Below the pieces are notes generated by a model, which saw only the letters and a list, made by a program, of their open reading frames with translations, was not told where the DNA came from and made no database searches. Made by a program: the position numbers and the translations under genes. From Malonomonas rubra DSM 5091 (GTDB taxonomy: Bacteria > Desulfobacterota > Desulfuromonadia > Desulfuromonadales > Geopsychrobacteraceae), in assembly GCF_900142125.1 (NCBI RefSeq), contig NZ_FQZT01000001.1, positions 1 through 64,000 on the forward strand: 64,000 nt of DNA, given 5' to 3'. This document shows, one piece after another, positions 24,709-55,493 of the stretch (the stretch's first letter is position 1; each line of letters begins with the position of its first letter).

Positions 24709-24742
24709 AAAAAAAACGGGCCCGATCATATGACCGAGCCCG
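24709..24742 (-). terminator. terminator of the cytochrome operon
   Basis: On the minus strand ACGGGCTCGG pairs with CCGGGCCCGT around TCATATGAT and is followed by eight Ts (24716-24709). It lies about 30 bases past the stop of the 12-heme cytochrome gene. Confidence 0.85.
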
Positions 24743-24773
24743 TCACCAAGCAAGTTTGCCAATTCGCTAGTTT

Positions 24774-25607
24774 TTACAGGTTCAAACTGTGCGGGTCACC
24801 ATGACAATCAACACATCCTTTGAAATTTTTCAGCAATTCGGGATTATGCGGTCCATATCCATGGCAATGTTGGCAATCATGGATATTGCCATGCTCATCT
24901 GCATGACAAACGACACAGGCAAGCGTCCGGTGTTTAAGGTCAGAGGATTCCTGAAATTTGCGCTGGTCCGGATGACAGCCTGCACAGATGGAACTCTGAA
25001 CTTTATTGTCATACTTGATCACCAGTGGTGCATGAGGTGGATGGCAACTGGCGCAACCGGCATTATCAACGTATTCAGTATGCGGCTTTTCGTGACAAAG
25101 CGTACATGCCGGTCGGGCGCCATGTTTTTCTCCCTGGTGACATTCAGCACAAGCCATTTCCGTGTGAGCGCTGACATTTTGTTGCAGCTGCTCCGTCTCT
25201 CCCTGATGACACTGACCGCACATCTCCGCCAAAGCATCAGCGACGACAAGGCTTTCAATGGGTGCATGGGCATTCTGGTGACAGTCAAGGCACTTAATCA
25301 GCTCTTCTCCATGAGGATGCTCATGGCAGCTCGCGCACGAAGGCACCCGATCCTCCCAGGCAACTCCCGGAGTAAAGGTATGAAACTTGTCGTGGCAATC
25401 TCGGCATTCCTGCTGGTGCAGACCGCCTGCATCGCGTAACGCCTCGAACACCTGGACATGACACTTTGCGCACTCAAGAGTTGTCATTTCCGGTACCTGT
25501 TGCTGATAGACATCAGCAGCAAAAAGACTTCCGGCACAGGCCAGCAGTACTGTGACAGCCAGCACCAGGCTACGACATTTAACCATCCCATTATATTTCA
25601 TCATCAT
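24774..25607 (-). CDS. 12-heme c-type cytochrome
   Basis: 277 residues with an N-terminal signal sequence (SLVLAVTVLLACAGSLFA) and 12 CxxCH motifs, one per about 20 residues, arranged as three 4-heme modules. Nearly every motif is followed by another His two to four residues on, which suggests bis-His ligation and a low-potential electron-transfer role in the periplasm or outside the cell. The last module ends CVDCHGDPHSL, like the ends of the other three cytochromes here. The ATG overlaps the stop of the 57-heme gene (ATGA), so both are co-translated. Three in-frame ATGs stand in a row; the first is given. Confidence 0.93.
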   Translation of the reverse strand: MMMKYNGMVKCRSLVLAVTVLLACAGSLFAADVYQQQVPEMTTLECAKCHVQVFEALRDAGGLHQQECRDCHDKFHTFTPGVAWEDRVPSCASCHEHPHGEELIKCLDCHQNAHAPIESLVVADALAEMCGQCHQGETEQLQQNVSAHTEMACAECHQGEKHGARPACTLCHEKPHTEYVDNAGCASCHPPHAPLVIKYDNKVQSSICAGCHPDQRKFQESSDLKHRTLACVVCHADEHGNIHDCQHCHGYGPHNPELLKNFKGCVDCHGDPHSLNL

Positions 25608-28600
25608 TGACCCTCACTGCTGGCAGCTGCTTCAGCCGCCTGACTATCGGTATTGTTTTCAGGTTGCGCTTCCGGCACAGGTGCCGGCTCCTCAGGTTTA
25701 CCGCGCCAATCGGCGAGATCATGTGGATCGTTGTGGCACTTTAGACAATCCGGGAACTTCTGATGCAGGGCTTCATCATGTGGCCTCTCATGACAATCAG
25801 CACAGCTCAGTGTACTGCCATGATCACCACTGTGACATTCAACACAGTTGACCTGGTTGTGAGCAGCTTTACTCGAAGCCAGGGCGTCAACCTGATCAGA
25901 GTGGCAGGATTGACAATGACCGGACGGAATTGAAGCGGAAAAAGCAACAACATTCGGCGCATGCGGCGAGCTGTGGCAACTCAAGCAAGCAGCATAGTCC
26001 ATGTCCGGGCTGTGAGGCTCGTGGCATTCTGAGCACTTCTGCGCAACGCCATGTTTCGGGTGACAGCTATTACAATCCTGTTCCGCATGCATGTTCGGCG
26101 TTGCGGCAAAGGTTTCACGAACAACGGTGTGACACGACGTGCAGGCAGGATTTGCATTTTGGGCCTTTGATAGATCGAGTCCGAGCGGATGGTGCGCCTG
26201 GTGACACTGCTCACAATTACCAACCGTGAAGTGTGCCCCCTCGTTCGGCTCGTGGCAACTCACACAGCTCGGAATAACATCCTCACCAAACGGTGGGTGA
26301 GTCCGGTGGCAGCTGATGCAGGGTTGCTTGCTGTGTTTGCCGCCATTCTCTTTCAGGTTGCCGGTCGCATCTTTGTGACAGGAAGCACAAACCGGACCGG
26401 ACTGGGTCGGCCGCGCCTTGATCATATGCGGCAGATGCGGCGGGTGACACTTGAGACAATCCCCATGTGTCATGTCCGGGATATGCGGCTTGTGACAATC
26501 AAGACACTGCTTCGATGACCCATGATCACCGACATGGCACTTGCTGCAATCGAAAGAGGTGTGCTTGTTCGGATACTGCTGATGCAGACGCTCCTGGTTA
26601 TTGTGGCAGGAAAGGCAAACAGGCTTCACCTCACCCAACTTGCCCAGGTCCATCTCCAGTGGCTGATGAGGGTCGTGACAACTGGAGCAATTGTCGAGCA
26701 CAAAATGGCGACGACGTGCTTTCGGGTGACAACTGTTACAGCTTTCAGTCACCGTCTTGCCATTCGGTTTATGTTCCGGGTGGCAGGCCACACAGCTGCC
26801 TAAATCTTTCTTGTGAGCAGCCCCTTTGGCATCCAGAGCAGTTGCCTGTTCCTGGTGACATGAGGCACAGAACTGGGCTGGAATTTCAGCATCTTTATGC
26901 AGACTGATATTCTGCGGTTGGTGCGGCAGGTGACAAAGTGAACAGTCTTCACGTTTCATCGATTTGTCGTGACCATCATGACAATCAAGACAAATACGGG
27001 TCGTAGTGTGGTTGCTGTGACAGCTCGTACAGTCTTGCTCGCTGTGCGCACTCGGCATCTCTGCGAAATCGGTCTCAACCTGCTTGTGACAGCTGGTGCA
27101 AACAGGCGCATGCGGCTTGTAGTCTTTCAGATTCAACACGAGTGGTTGATGCGGCGAGTGACAGGACAAACAATCACCCACAGTGTAGTGTTCGTGATCA
27201 CTCGGGTTATGGCAGAGGAAGCAGGATTCCGGGATACCAATCCCTTGCTGCGGGTGCTCGGCATGACAGCTGGTACAGGAAGATTCCGGATGTTGCTGAT
27301 GACAGGATGAACACTCAACCGCGTCACGGTGCGCTCCACCCTTCTCATCCACTTCAGCTGAAACATCTTCGTGGCAGGCAGAACACTGCTGCGAGGGGGG
27401 CTCCGCAGAGAGATCAATTTGCAGCGGAGCGTGAGCATTGTGACAAAGGGCGCAGTCCTTGTTGGTCATTTGTTCGTCATGACCATCATGGCAACCAAGG
27501 CAGGATGGTGCCCCGATGTGGGTCCGGTGGCAGGCGACGCAGTCACGATCATGAGCGCTCGGATGTCCACTGGTCAGCTCCGCCTCGACTTCCTCATGGC
27601 AGCCGGCACAAATCTGACGTGAACCATGGAATCCTGAGATGTCGTCTTTCAAAGGCTGGTGCGGGTCGTGACAACCAACGCAGTTCGGGCTGCTGAAGTG
27701 TGCGTTGTCATCAGGGTCGTGACAGCTTGAACATTCGGGGATTGCATTTTCAGCAGGCGGGTGAGCCTGATGGCATTCGACGCAACCAAGTTTCTTGTGT
27801 GCGCGGCCGCCTTTATCCAAAGCACTAAAGGCTTCTTCGTGACAACTGACGCAGTATTCTGAAAAAGTTCCTTCGGCAAAAGTCACTGGCGCAGGAGCGT
27901 GATGATTGTGGCACTTGGTGCAATCATCAGCCTTCATCTCTTCCGTATGGCCTTCGTGACAGTCGAGACAGCTCGGAGATTGGCCGTGAACACTGTGGCA
28001 CTGGTTGCAATCGACAGCTTCACTGTGTGCCGTTGGTTGCTTTTCCATAACAGCGATCACATCCTCGTGACAGCTGGCACAGAACGGACGGGCGGTTTCC
28101 AGATTACTTAAATCGAGGTTCTCAGTTTTCGGGCTGTGCGGATTATGACACTGGGAACAACTCTCTAACGCAAAATGAGCATTATCGTCTTTATCGTGGC
28201 AGCTGCTGCAGTCAGCAATCTCCACGTCAGCTGGCGGGTGGGTTTTATGGCAATCAGCGCAGGAGAGATTCTCTTTGTGCGCAGCACCGGCCACATCGAA
28301 TTCAACGCCAATGCCCTCATGACAATCGCTGCAATAGTTTGCATTGACGCTGGACTTGATCACCGGTGGCATTGGCTCGTGGGAACCGTGGCAACCGGCA
28401 CAATCAGCCTTCTGCATCTTCGGGTTGTGGCCTTCGTGGCAGTTGAGACAATCAGGCTGATCTTTATGCTGCAGGTGGCATTCGTCACAGCTCATCTGGG
28501 CGTGGGCAGCATCACTCTTGGCCATCGCCTTGCTGGTTTTGGCATGACAGGCAGTGCAGAGTTTCGCTGTCAGGCCTTCTGCTTTCAGTGGCGGCAAAGG

Positions 28601-29143
28601 ATTGTGCGCTGCATGACAGCTCAGGCAGGGTTCTTCTACTGAGCCATCAGTGTGGCCTTCGTGACAATCTGTGCAGCTTGGTACCGAGTTGTGATTGCTG
28701 TGGCACTCTGTACATCTCAAACCATCGGAATGAGCTGTTGAGCCTTTTCCGTAAGGATTGTCATGACAGCTCAAACAAATTTGTTTGAGAGGCTTTTCAA
28801 ACTGGTCAAGATCGATTTCCAGCGGCCAGTGAGCATGATGGCACTCTTTACAGTTGCCAATGGCGAAATGTTTGCTGTCGTCGGGATCGTGGCAAGTGGT
28901 GCAAGCAGCAACCTCAAATTCCGAACCACGTTGTTTCGGGTGAGTCTGGTGACAATCCTGGCAAACGACCGCAACGGCGTGCTGACCGCCCGACTTTTCC
29001 AGTTTTGACAGAACCTTTTTGTGACAGCGGGTGCAGTCACGCTCAATCAACCGGCTCATGTCAGCAGCCAGCAGATTCGAACTCCCCCAGATCAATAGAC
29101 AGACAGACAGGACAAATGCACGCAACAGAAAAGAAATCTTCAT
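25604..29143 (-). CDS. giant 57-heme c-type cytochrome
   Basis: 1179 residues from the ATG at 29143 (MKISFLLRAFVLSV), with AGAGGG six bases upstream; a longer frame starting at 29182 is less likely. A signal peptide ends near SSNLLAA. I count 57 CxxCH motifs, one per about 20 residues. They form 14 modules of four (one with five) of two alternating types: A, with CLDCHEGH...DC..CH.xHAP, and B, with CSSCHDPDDNAHF...NC..CH.PHQPL. The end carries the shared cap KFPDCLKCHNDPHDL and then a Pro/Glu/Ala-rich tail of about 35 residues. Probably a long extracytoplasmic electron conduit. No cytochrome-free domain, membrane anchor or lipobox was recognised. Confidence 0.95.
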   Translation of the reverse strand: MKISFLLRAFVLSVCLLIWGSSNLLAADMSRLIERDCTRCHKKVLSKLEKSGGQHAVAVVCQDCHQTHPKQRGSEFEVAACTTCHDPDDSKHFAIGNCKECHHAHWPLEIDLDQFEKPLKQICLSCHDNPYGKGSTAHSDGLRCTECHSNHNSVPSCTDCHEGHTDGSVEEPCLSCHAAHNPLPPLKAEGLTAKLCTACHAKTSKAMAKSDAAHAQMSCDECHLQHKDQPDCLNCHEGHNPKMQKADCAGCHGSHEPMPPVIKSSVNANYCSDCHEGIGVEFDVAGAAHKENLSCADCHKTHPPADVEIADCSSCHDKDDNAHFALESCSQCHNPHSPKTENLDLSNLETARPFCASCHEDVIAVMEKQPTAHSEAVDCNQCHSVHGQSPSCLDCHEGHTEEMKADDCTKCHNHHAPAPVTFAEGTFSEYCVSCHEEAFSALDKGGRAHKKLGCVECHQAHPPAENAIPECSSCHDPDDNAHFSSPNCVGCHDPHQPLKDDISGFHGSRQICAGCHEEVEAELTSGHPSAHDRDCVACHRTHIGAPSCLGCHDGHDEQMTNKDCALCHNAHAPLQIDLSAEPPSQQCSACHEDVSAEVDEKGGAHRDAVECSSCHQQHPESSCTSCHAEHPQQGIGIPESCFLCHNPSDHEHYTVGDCLSCHSPHQPLVLNLKDYKPHAPVCTSCHKQVETDFAEMPSAHSEQDCTSCHSNHTTTRICLDCHDGHDKSMKREDCSLCHLPHQPQNISLHKDAEIPAQFCASCHQEQATALDAKGAAHKKDLGSCVACHPEHKPNGKTVTESCNSCHPKARRRHFVLDNCSSCHDPHQPLEMDLGKLGEVKPVCLSCHNNQERLHQQYPNKHTSFDCSKCHVGDHGSSKQCLDCHKPHIPDMTHGDCLKCHPPHLPHMIKARPTQSGPVCASCHKDATGNLKENGGKHSKQPCISCHRTHPPFGEDVIPSCVSCHEPNEGAHFTVGNCEQCHQAHHPLGLDLSKAQNANPACTSCHTVVRETFAATPNMHAEQDCNSCHPKHGVAQKCSECHEPHSPDMDYAACLSCHSSPHAPNVVAFSASIPSGHCQSCHSDQVDALASSKAAHNQVNCVECHSGDHGSTLSCADCHERPHDEALHQKFPDCLKCHNDPHDLADWRGKPEEPAPVPEAQPENNTDSQAAEAAASSEGQ

Positions 29144-53695: not shown

Positions 53696-53818
53696 TTTCG
53701 TTTGTATATGTAATTTATTGCCATCATCTACTTAAAAGCAGCTGTATATTAAATCTTGTAATTTTTAACATCCGCGTCATGAATTTACATGACTCAATCC
53801 ATTGCATCAGGAGGCACA

Positions 53819-54610
53819 ATGCGTACTAAACCTTTATCCCTGACCTCGTTGCTGGCATTTGTTGTCTGCGGACTTCTGCTGGCTGCAGCCCCTGCTTTTG
53901 CTCAACCTGAGCTGAGCATTGACGACTGTGCAAAATGTCACGAACAACAGCCGGCCGAAGTTGAGGAAGCCGGTGCGAAGCACAAAACCGATACCGACTG
54001 TCTCGGCTGCCATACTGGCCACCGCCCGAGCAGCCCGAACAACATTCCCGAGTGCAGCATGTGCCACGAAGGCACACCTCACTACGAGCTTGCGAATTGC
54101 ATGAGCTGCCACAATCCGCACCAGCCGTTGCGCGTTGTTCTCCAAGGCGATCTGAAAGCAGAGTGTCTGACCTGCCACACCGAGCAGAACGAAGAACTTG
54201 TCGCTAACCCGAGCAAGCACACCGACGTCGCTTGTAACCTCTGTCACTCGGACACCCACGGCAACATTCCACAATGCTCCGAATGTCATGAATCTCATGC
54301 CCCGACCCAGACCCAGCAGGACTGCTTCATCTGTCACGATGTCCACATGCCACTGGTGCTTGAATATCCGGACACCACTCCGAACATTCACTGTGCTGCC
54401 TGCCACCAGACTGCCTACGATCAGTTGATGGCCAGCAAGACCAAGCACCATGACGTTGCCTGTGTTGCCTGCCACGCGACCAAGCACAAGACCGTTCCGG
54501 CCTGTAGTGATTGTCACGATCTGCCGCACGCAGAAGGCATCCACGCCAAGTTCCCGGAATGTGGCAGCTGTCACAACACTGGTCACGACCTGAATAACTT
54601 TGCAAAATAA
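53819..54610 (+). CDS. 12-heme c-type cytochrome
   Basis: 263 residues from the ATG at 53819 (MRTKPLSLTSLLAFVV), with a strong AGGAGG upstream. Signal peptide ends near APAFAQ. Twelve CxxCH motifs in three 4-heme modules; the sequence reads like modules of the 57-heme protein (CMSCHNPHQPLRVVL, CSECHESHAPT) and ends with FPECGSCHNTGHDL, the cap shared with the other cytochromes here. Electron transfer across the periplasm or outside the cell is likely. The second 12-heme gene follows 19 bases after the stop. Confidence 0.94.
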   Translation: MRTKPLSLTSLLAFVVCGLLLAAAPAFAQPELSIDDCAKCHEQQPAEVEEAGAKHKTDTDCLGCHTGHRPSSPNNIPECSMCHEGTPHYELANCMSCHNPHQPLRVVLQGDLKAECLTCHTEQNEELVANPSKHTDVACNLCHSDTHGNIPQCSECHESHAPTQTQQDCFICHDVHMPLVLEYPDTTPNIHCAACHQTAYDQLMASKTKHHDVACVACHATKHKTVPACSDCHDLPHAEGIHAKFPECGSCHNTGHDLNNFAK

Positions 54611-54629
54611 ATATAAATAAGGACATCCG

Positions 54630-55493
54630 ATGAGTAGCAATATTCAAAATCAAATCAGAATTATCGCACTTGTCGCAGTCTTTCTACTCTTCGCCGGGGC
54701 GGTTTCGACCGCCCTGGCCCAGACCAGAAAAGATCTGCCGCCGCAGGACGCCAGCCTTTATGCTGAAGACCCGCAGCCGTTAACTATGGCACAGTGTGGG
54801 CAGTGCCATACTAAGCATTTCGGTGACCTCAAAAACGCCGGTGGAAAACACCAGTTCGATTGCCGCGAATGTCATGAAGTTTTCCATGCCTACAACCCAC
54901 TGAAAAAAAATTACGCGGAAATCATGCCACAGTGCTACACCTGCCATGGTCAACCTCACGGCACCAAGCATGTTGAATGCCTGAACTGTCACGAGAACCC
55001 GCACGCACCGACCAGCGTCAAGATGAGCCATATGTTGGCTGGTATCTGTGCTGACTGCCACACTCCGGAAGCACAGGAGTTGCAGCAGTTCCCAAGCAAA
55101 CACACTGAGCAGGCATGTAACAGCTGTCACCACAACCGCCACGGCTACATTCCGCAGTGCGCCGAGTGCCATCAACCGCACTTTGCCACTCAGGCCGAAG
55201 CAACCTGTATGACCTGCCACCCGGTTCACCAGCCACGCACGATTGTCTTTGAAAACGAGATTGAGCTGGAAACCTGCAACGCCTGTCACGGTGACATTTA
55301 CGCGAAGTGGCAGGGAGGCAAGAGCAAGCACGCCCAGGTGGGCTGCGCTGAGTGCCATACTGCACACGCCAAGATCCCTGAGTGCAGCATGTGCCACGTT
55401 GCTCCGAAGGGGCATGCCCCGCAGATGCTGGAGCAGTTCCCGAACTGCCTCATGTGCCACTTAGACGTACACGATCTGCCAGTTAAGAAGTAA
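54630..55493 (+). CDS. 12-heme c-type cytochrome
   Basis: 287 residues. Signal sequence at about 9-31 (IIALVAVFLLFAGAVSTALAQ) and twelve CxxCH motifs in three modules. In its N-terminal module (TMAQCGQCHTKHFGDLKNAGG, CRECHEVFHAYNP, CYTCHGQPHGTKHVECLNCHENPHAP in parts) it is clearly the counterpart of the cytochrome at 24774-25607 (TTLECAKCHVQVFEALRDAGG). Ends FPNCLMCHLDVHDL. Co-transcribed with the gene at 53819. Confidence 0.94.
   Translation: MSSNIQNQIRIIALVAVFLLFAGAVSTALAQTRKDLPPQDASLYAEDPQPLTMAQCGQCHTKHFGDLKNAGGKHQFDCRECHEVFHAYNPLKKNYAEIMPQCYTCHGQPHGTKHVECLNCHENPHAPTSVKMSHMLAGICADCHTPEAQELQQFPSKHTEQACNSCHHNRHGYIPQCAECHQPHFATQAEATCMTCHPVHQPRTIVFENEIELETCNACHGDIYAKWQGGKSKHAQVGCAECHTAHAKIPECSMCHVAPKGHAPQMLEQFPNCLMCHLDVHDLPVKK

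Follow-up and report, generated by a model that had tools for sequence, protein, structure and literature searches.

A 57-heme cytochrome of Malonomonas rubra assembled from four-heme modules on a constant C-terminal core and encoded beside a 12-heme partner

Cytochromes that carry several dozen hemes on one polypeptide raise a question that is easily put; a review that lists 86 hemes in a protein of Agromonas and 58 in one of Thermincola describes as unclear why a single protein should hold so many hemes, and whether such proteins can be produced with the full set (PMC7096707). A gene for such a protein lies in the stretch of 64,000 nucleotides of Malonomonas rubra DSM 5091 that was analysed here (contig NZ_FQZT01000001.1, positions 1 to 64,000; the window), and we ask how the protein is built, what accompanies it in this and other genomes, and what it may do.

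The gene, which we call X, occupies positions 25604 to 29143 of the minus strand (ATG at 29143, stop codon at 25604-25606) and specifies 1,179 amino acids followed by the stop. A program recount of this minus-strand frame gave 57 CxxCH motifs in 1,179 residues, the figures claimed in a first-pass annotation from which both the strand and the overlapping gene of a 12-heme partner were absent. Allowing CxxxCH or CxxxxCH added no motif, and 114 of the 115 cysteines lie inside CxxCH motifs, the lone exception being residue 15, in the signal peptide; a chance origin of the motifs was ruled out by 1,000 residue-shuffled versions of X, which contained 1.2 on average and at most 5, against 57. The mature protein has a calculated mass of about 125 kDa without hemes and about 160 kDa with 57 of them, at 2.2 kDa of peptide per heme. 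Residues 1-26 (MKISFLLRAFVLSVCLLIWGSSNLLA; 29066-29143, minus strand) were read by eye from the translation as a signal peptide, apparently of type I and without a clear lipobox. The suspicion that a frameshift hides two separate proteins, or that two genes have been fused, was rejected because two full-length orthologs, G036 and G029, have frames that are open from end to end (59% and 58% identity); X is a single gene. Elsewhere in the window, an open frame on the plus strand (369-1265) resembles, by eye, an IS3-type transposase with a DDE domain.

When cut from the C-terminus, X resolves into 14 modules in exactly the order proposed at first pass, B A A B A B A B' A B A B A cap, where A is a short type with motif spacing near 23-13-16, B is a long type with spacing near 24-17/18-17, and B' is a module whose spacing of 24-12-18-17 bears out the fifth heme ascribed to it. 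We refer below to the resulting heme number of 4n + 1 as the module rule. Motif spacing is periodic at lags of 4 and 8, as had been anticipated, and none of 2,000 spacing shuffles was as regular at either lag; with the cap excluded, modules of the same type share a mean identity of 36.9% (36 pairs), against 29.4% for modules of different types (42 pairs). On the minus strand, the N-terminal modules B A A (residues 37-270; 28334-29035) bear 12 hemes, the first two modules being matched in place in all four orthologs of family f1, and are followed by B A B A (residues 271-586; 27386-28333) with 16 hemes, a stretch that is partly repeated in one ortholog (G037) and shorter in another (G016). The five-heme module B' (residues 587-681; 27101-27385) then opens a 29-heme C-terminal core, B' A B A B A cap (residues 587-1147; 25703-27385), and the chain ends in a Pro/Glu/Ala-rich tail (residues 1148-1179; 25607-25702). 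All five f1 sequences in an alignment of 11 giants (A1) carry this tail, and the six from other families end no more than about 20 residues past the last motif; the suggestion that the tail anchors the protein thus finds no support as a general feature, and a needed anchor was rejected on the same ground.

Proteins of comparable length and periodicity were sought in 44 genomes of the family and 136 of the order. The family genomes yielded at least four giant orthologs and the order genomes added at least seven, so that, our own included, giants occur in at least 12 of the 136 genomes, spread over families f1, f8, f15 and f18; a search of the Desulfuromonadales for similar arrays, as the first-pass annotation had advised, returned at least 11 orthologs, and the ten intact ones range from 49 to 77 motifs. 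Motif counts are 57 (the window's own), 57, 57, 49 and 72 in f1, 53 in f15 (G105, 43% identical to X of the window), 65 in f8, and 73, 77, 77 and 77 in f18; G029 belongs to the same genus as the window's genome. The twelfth giant, G123 of f18, is split over two frames with 54 and 16 motifs, and was counted among the giants and left out of the motif tally given below and of alignment A1. The position of B' in this gene (L096:3244-7454) implies 69 hemes in total, the figure published for DSOUD_0664. Exactly one five-heme B' is present in each of the 12 giants found, and the 12-residue gap of B' is followed by exactly 27 hemes in all 11 giants with intact frames, our own included. The 29-heme C-terminal core is hence constant in heme number, and the number of hemes N-terminal of it ranges from 20 to 48 across the intact giants (43 in G037).

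Smaller relatives of X reach further. Forms with 20 hemes are found in f1, f7 and other lineages and forms with 12 hemes in many more, and in several lineages of the phylum these small relatives belong to the same kind of gene pair. At an E value of 0.001, a profile of the core found relatives in at least 194 genomes of an even sample of 395 across the phylum, a figure that likely includes other multiheme cytochromes; among the matches listed from this search, only the window's own spans the 29-heme core from end to end. A first contig scan with the X protein alone as the query, and one viral scan, returned no relative.

The manner in which such an array lengthens can be read from the orthologs. 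The two other 57-heme orthologs match X module by module. In G037, whose gene (L050:4453-8883) has 72 motifs with one missing, we placed a pseudo-position at the missing motif for the module map and left the sequence unchanged; the last eight modules correspond one to one to X modules 7 to 14, the first two match X modules 1 and 2 (the second narrowly, 44 versus 42%), and the modules between show repeated best matches to X modules 4, 5 and 6. Two adjacent 8-heme units of G037 share 76.6% identity at the protein level and 75.3% at the DNA level, which suggests that this tandem duplication is comparatively recent, and the counts in f1 differ in steps of 8 (G037 has 72 motifs where 73 would follow from the module rule). 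The first proposal, that the array grew as an A + B unit of eight hemes was duplicated, is supported by these units and steps, and sequence comparison places the growth in G037 N-terminal of the core. Single four-heme modules were also gained or lost, since in f18 the counts 73 and 77 lie four hemes apart and A modules in places stand side by side; in more distant families, individual modules find their best matches out of order. The ancestral kind would have been 12-heme cytochromes of the form B A cap encoded beside a 12-heme partner, as in several lineages of the Desulfobacterota, and in the Desulfuromonadales the first gene likely then gained modules, mostly as 8-heme B + A units. The resulting array would comprise the constant 29-heme C-terminal core, a two-module N-terminus that is matched at least among close relatives, and a variable stretch between them.

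The partner, Y, is encoded on the minus strand at 24774-25607, a frame of 277 amino acids with 12 CxxCH motifs whose ATG overlaps the stop codon of X by four bases and whose product has, by eye, its own N-terminal signal sequence. A 12-heme Y lies directly downstream of X in all 12 giant loci found. Just downstream of Y in the window, a consensus scan marked a terminator-like element, a 13-pair stem with a run of six T behind it (24715-24744, minus strand), a position that suggests a two-gene transcript of X and Y; the same scan gave 9 such sites in the region against 5.7 expected, and the stem is no proof of a terminator.

A second pair probably lies in the same window. P0003 (53789-54610, plus strand) was recognised by sequence match as a minimal, 12-heme relative of X that aligns best with the C-terminal B A cap at residues 910-1146, and P0004, immediately downstream (54630-55493, plus strand), is a 12-heme protein that appears Y-like by eye from its motif spacing; together (53789-55493, plus strand) they may be taken, by eye, as a further X-Y pair. 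With this 12-heme pair at hand, X looks like the expanded member of an X-Y pair. A phmmer match of P0003 to 9yuq_N was dropped, as by eye it rests on the signal peptide and loose motifs.

In two metagenome-assembled genomes, the partners are joined. In Co_bin7 (L118:4994-6880), a frame of 629 amino acids with 28 motifs holds X modules first and then Y, the Y part starting, by eye, from Y's fourth heme, and Meg22_46_Bin_1 (L119) has the same X-Y join in a chain truncated where the contig stops. From such natural chimeras it seems that modules of X and of Y can be combined into a single continuous chain, and we infer that X and Y may also make contact, end to end, where they are separate proteins. 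The chimera of Co_bin7 is part of an array (L118:785-6880) that comprises a 12-heme X, a 20-heme X, a shortened 8-heme Y and the chimera itself, and the genes of this array have, by eye, near-identical stretches in common, as if after recent unequal recombination.

Beyond Y, the neighbourhood varies. A conserved third gene, Z, of the Sel1/TPR type and present in several families, lies downstream of Y in five giant loci (G105, G088, G126, G123 and G124) and in 10 of the 11 20-heme f7 loci examined, the contig of the eleventh (L098) ending inside Y; it also stands beside the pairs in L062 and L118. Z was not found in the window or in the loci of G037, G016, G125 and G127, and the contigs of G029 and G036 end too soon to tell. 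Its product was seen in L091:6118-7191 (minus strand) and L100:9261-10349 (plus strand), with Sel1/TPR repeats and, by eye, an N-terminal membrane segment and a nearby CxxC. In 5 of the 11 f7 loci (L099, L100, L102, L106 and L109), there follow a 10-heme cytochrome and a larger one; the larger one has 13 motifs in both L099 and L102, and in the other three, where the end of the locus cuts it, the number is lower. In L100, a protein of 451 amino acids without a Pfam or NCBIfam match precedes both. These f7 neighbours hint at a link to an outer-membrane conduit. They stand beside a triad of 12, 20 and 12 hemes (L100:10935-14999), and the 10-heme cytochrome has the unusual motif spacing 18-39-9-42-9-41-29-10-35. 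Inspection by eye of the open frames of the window recognised no porin, outer-membrane conduit, export or filament genes. The window's genome also has, in two copies, a gene pair for large cytochromes, one of 26 motifs and one of 16 (L063:2353-5546, minus strand; L011 and L012), which are of a different spacing type; a solitary 12-heme X lies some 6 kb from the first copy.

Giants of this kind are already in print. DESUT3_5430 of 'D. versatilis' is reported with 53 heme sites, the same number as the motifs of the f15 protein from G105, and its homologs, with 55 to 77 sites, come from Geoalkalibacter subterraneus, D. acetexigens and M. rubra (PMC8465243); X of the window is possibly the very M. 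rubra homolog included in that count, and the accessible text of that paper gives counts and identities without module order, fixed core, Y or length series. DSOUD_0664 of Desulfuromonas soudanensis, with 69 heme-binding motifs, is placed among predicted extracellular cytochromes (PMC4914508); as far as its published description allows comparison, it comes from the same order as X and is of similar size, and its heme number, 69 = 40 + 29, is allowed by the module rule. D. acetexigens, likewise of this order, expresses a cytochrome with 86 motifs when it carries out extracellular electron transfer (PMC12133095), but 86 falls outside the 4n + 1 rule of X; the same paper credits the many-heme cytochromes of D. 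acetexigens with electron transfer and storage capabilities. For Geoalkalibacter ferrihydriticus, up to 38 are given (PMC12016550). The first-pass remark that few characterised cytochromes have so many hemes thus needs correcting, proteins with 53 to 86 motifs having been published. What was known of the Desulfuromonadales giants of 53 to 77 hemes was their counts; the module rule, the 29-heme core and the X-Y pair were not found described in the accessible text of papers from an open-access literature search.

Comparison with characterised proteins places the modules in familiar company. X scored 147.7 bits with Pfam PF14537 (Cytochrom_c3_2; gathering cut-off, 25 bits) and 126.7 bits with PF14522 (Cytochrome_C7; gathering cut-off, 24.8 bits). 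Membership was rejected for TIGR03508, the DmsE/MtrA family (131.0 bits, below the cut-off of 192.2), for CctA NF047727 (64.9 bits, below the equivalog cut-off of 180) and for HmcA NF045713 (30.1 bits, below the equivalog cut-off of 400). Each of these proteins resembles X in part. Six separate stretches of X pass the threshold for the decaheme MtrA/DmsE family, and a profile of 66 units matched best, among solved structures, chain A of the Mtr complex, 6r2q_A (5e-14), which we take to be MtrA; yet MtrA/DmsE has 10 hemes and forms a linear wire through the MtrB barrel, whereas X has 57, and inspection by eye of the open frames of the window recognised nothing MtrB-like beside X. CctA/STC and Cytochrom_c3_2 resemble X in module size (match to 1m1p_A, 1.3e-4), but STC is a single four-heme carrier, unlike the multimodular X. 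HmcA, 3ov0 and other poly-module cytochromes have several class III-like units per chain, and the profile matched 1z1n, 1gws and 3ov0; the hexadecaheme HmcA and these poly-module proteins have far fewer hemes than X.

A full-length AlphaFold2 model of X, built from 8 sequences, was unusable (mean pLDDT, 31.8; pTM, 0.20), and a model of a 12-heme unit from 66 rows was confident (pLDDT, 88.4; pTM, 0.72). With the latter, Foldseek returned one match only (E value, 8.1) and VIA-align a single row of 14 chains, that of NrfH, 2j7a_O (Z, 3.1; rmsd, 5.7; 88 residues). These unconvincing fold matches of a predicted structure are uninformative and constitute no evidence of a new fold.

The aligned sequences also speak to the state of the hemes. 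In the core, as aligned across 11 giants (A1), all 29 motif histidines and 29 other histidines are invariant; the latter occupy 28 of the 29 intervals, one of which holds two, and the one interval left, which follows the third B' heme, has a histidine in 10 of 11 sequences, the exception being G124. Across the 11 whole giants there are 714 motifs, and in 713 cases one or more further histidines occur ahead of the next motif; lone cysteines lie only within the first 40 residues. By the module rule there should be 715 motifs, and the site that is lacking belongs to G037. For nearly every heme of X there is thus a conserved histidine that could serve as the second ligand, a pattern that fits electron transfer and not catalysis. 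At the codon level, X is evidently under purifying selection: two 77-heme orthologs that are 95.8% identical gave a dN of 0.021 and a dS of 0.297 (dN/dS, 0.07), and in three more distant ortholog pairs dS was 1.3 or not computable.

On balance, we lean towards reading X as a secreted, single-chain heme wire in the cell envelope; the long linear wire imagined at first pass is plausible. Electrons would enter X at one end from a presumed donor, hop from module to module along a putatively continuous stack of hemes, and pass between the conserved end of X and Y, and the X-Y pair would act in the envelope while extracellular or sulfur acceptors are respired. The pattern is broken in two places, by the missing motif of G037 and by the B' heme of G124 that has no further histidine before the next motif; both weigh against a strictly continuous bis-histidine chain and would need explaining. 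Known wires advance by about 7 to 8 Å per heme, and the usual periplasm is narrower than 43 nm; X, fully stretched, would measure about 43 nm, more than the usual periplasm, so a straight bridge from membrane to membrane does not follow, and the chain would be either bent or tilted or partly at work outside. It is possible, and we offer it tentatively, that X is a nanowire whose length is set genetically, as one chain and not a polymer, with its reach tuned by 4- and 8-heme modules N-terminal of the core and with Y as the end contact.

Among the alternatives, a soluble periplasmic store for electrons survives best, unlikely as we judge it to be. Such a reservoir would take up as many as 57 electrons when acceptor is scarce, and its length would set its capacity. 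The very low ratio of 2.2 kDa of peptide per heme would suit it, as would a secreted protein in which, by eye, no anchor was recognised and beside which, in the window, no conduit genes were recognised by eye, and the accessible text on D. acetexigens does name storage as a capability of its many-heme cytochromes (PMC12133095). A store, on the other hand, would tolerate the loss of single hemes and would need neither a 29-heme core in fixed order nor a constant 12-heme partner. The argument from the core is not decisive, in that one lost heme may also misfold the chain. Taken together, the constant core and partner, the preserved hemes and the changes of length by whole modules fit a wire better than a store.

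It is improbable that X, with Y, is exported past the outer membrane as an extracellular nanowire in the manner of OmcS, OmcE or OmcZ, only as a single chain. The prediction of the 69-heme DSOUD_0664 as extracellular (PMC4914508) would favour such an export if that protein should be an ortholog of X. Against it, the lists of solved-structure matches (6 and 53 rows) contained no match named OmcS, OmcE or OmcZ, and the open frames of the window offered, by eye, no recognisable export or filament genes. That X should be an enzyme or a metal-binding protein, for instance a multiheme reductase, instead of a carrier we regard as very improbable, since, for all that some relatives of the profile are reductases (the eight-heme nitrite reductase) and that one B' heme of G124 has no further histidine before the next motif, the conserved further histidines, invariant in 28 core intervals of 11 giants, speak against catalysis and, with candidates at 713 of 714 sites, no site in X looks open.

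If X is a wire, as we favour, then it would be a redox protein that evolves its length by whole conducting modules; and should that length be genetically set, the wires of different species would run from 49 to 77 hemes, possibly matched to their envelopes or partner complexes. Nature has supplied a length series of 12, 20, 49, 53, 57, 65, 73 and 77 hemes, the giants among which have a constant core and a constant partner, and models of a wire, a capacitor and a filament become testable by comparison of lengths. The family offers, in addition, a tractable 12-heme piece for structural work.
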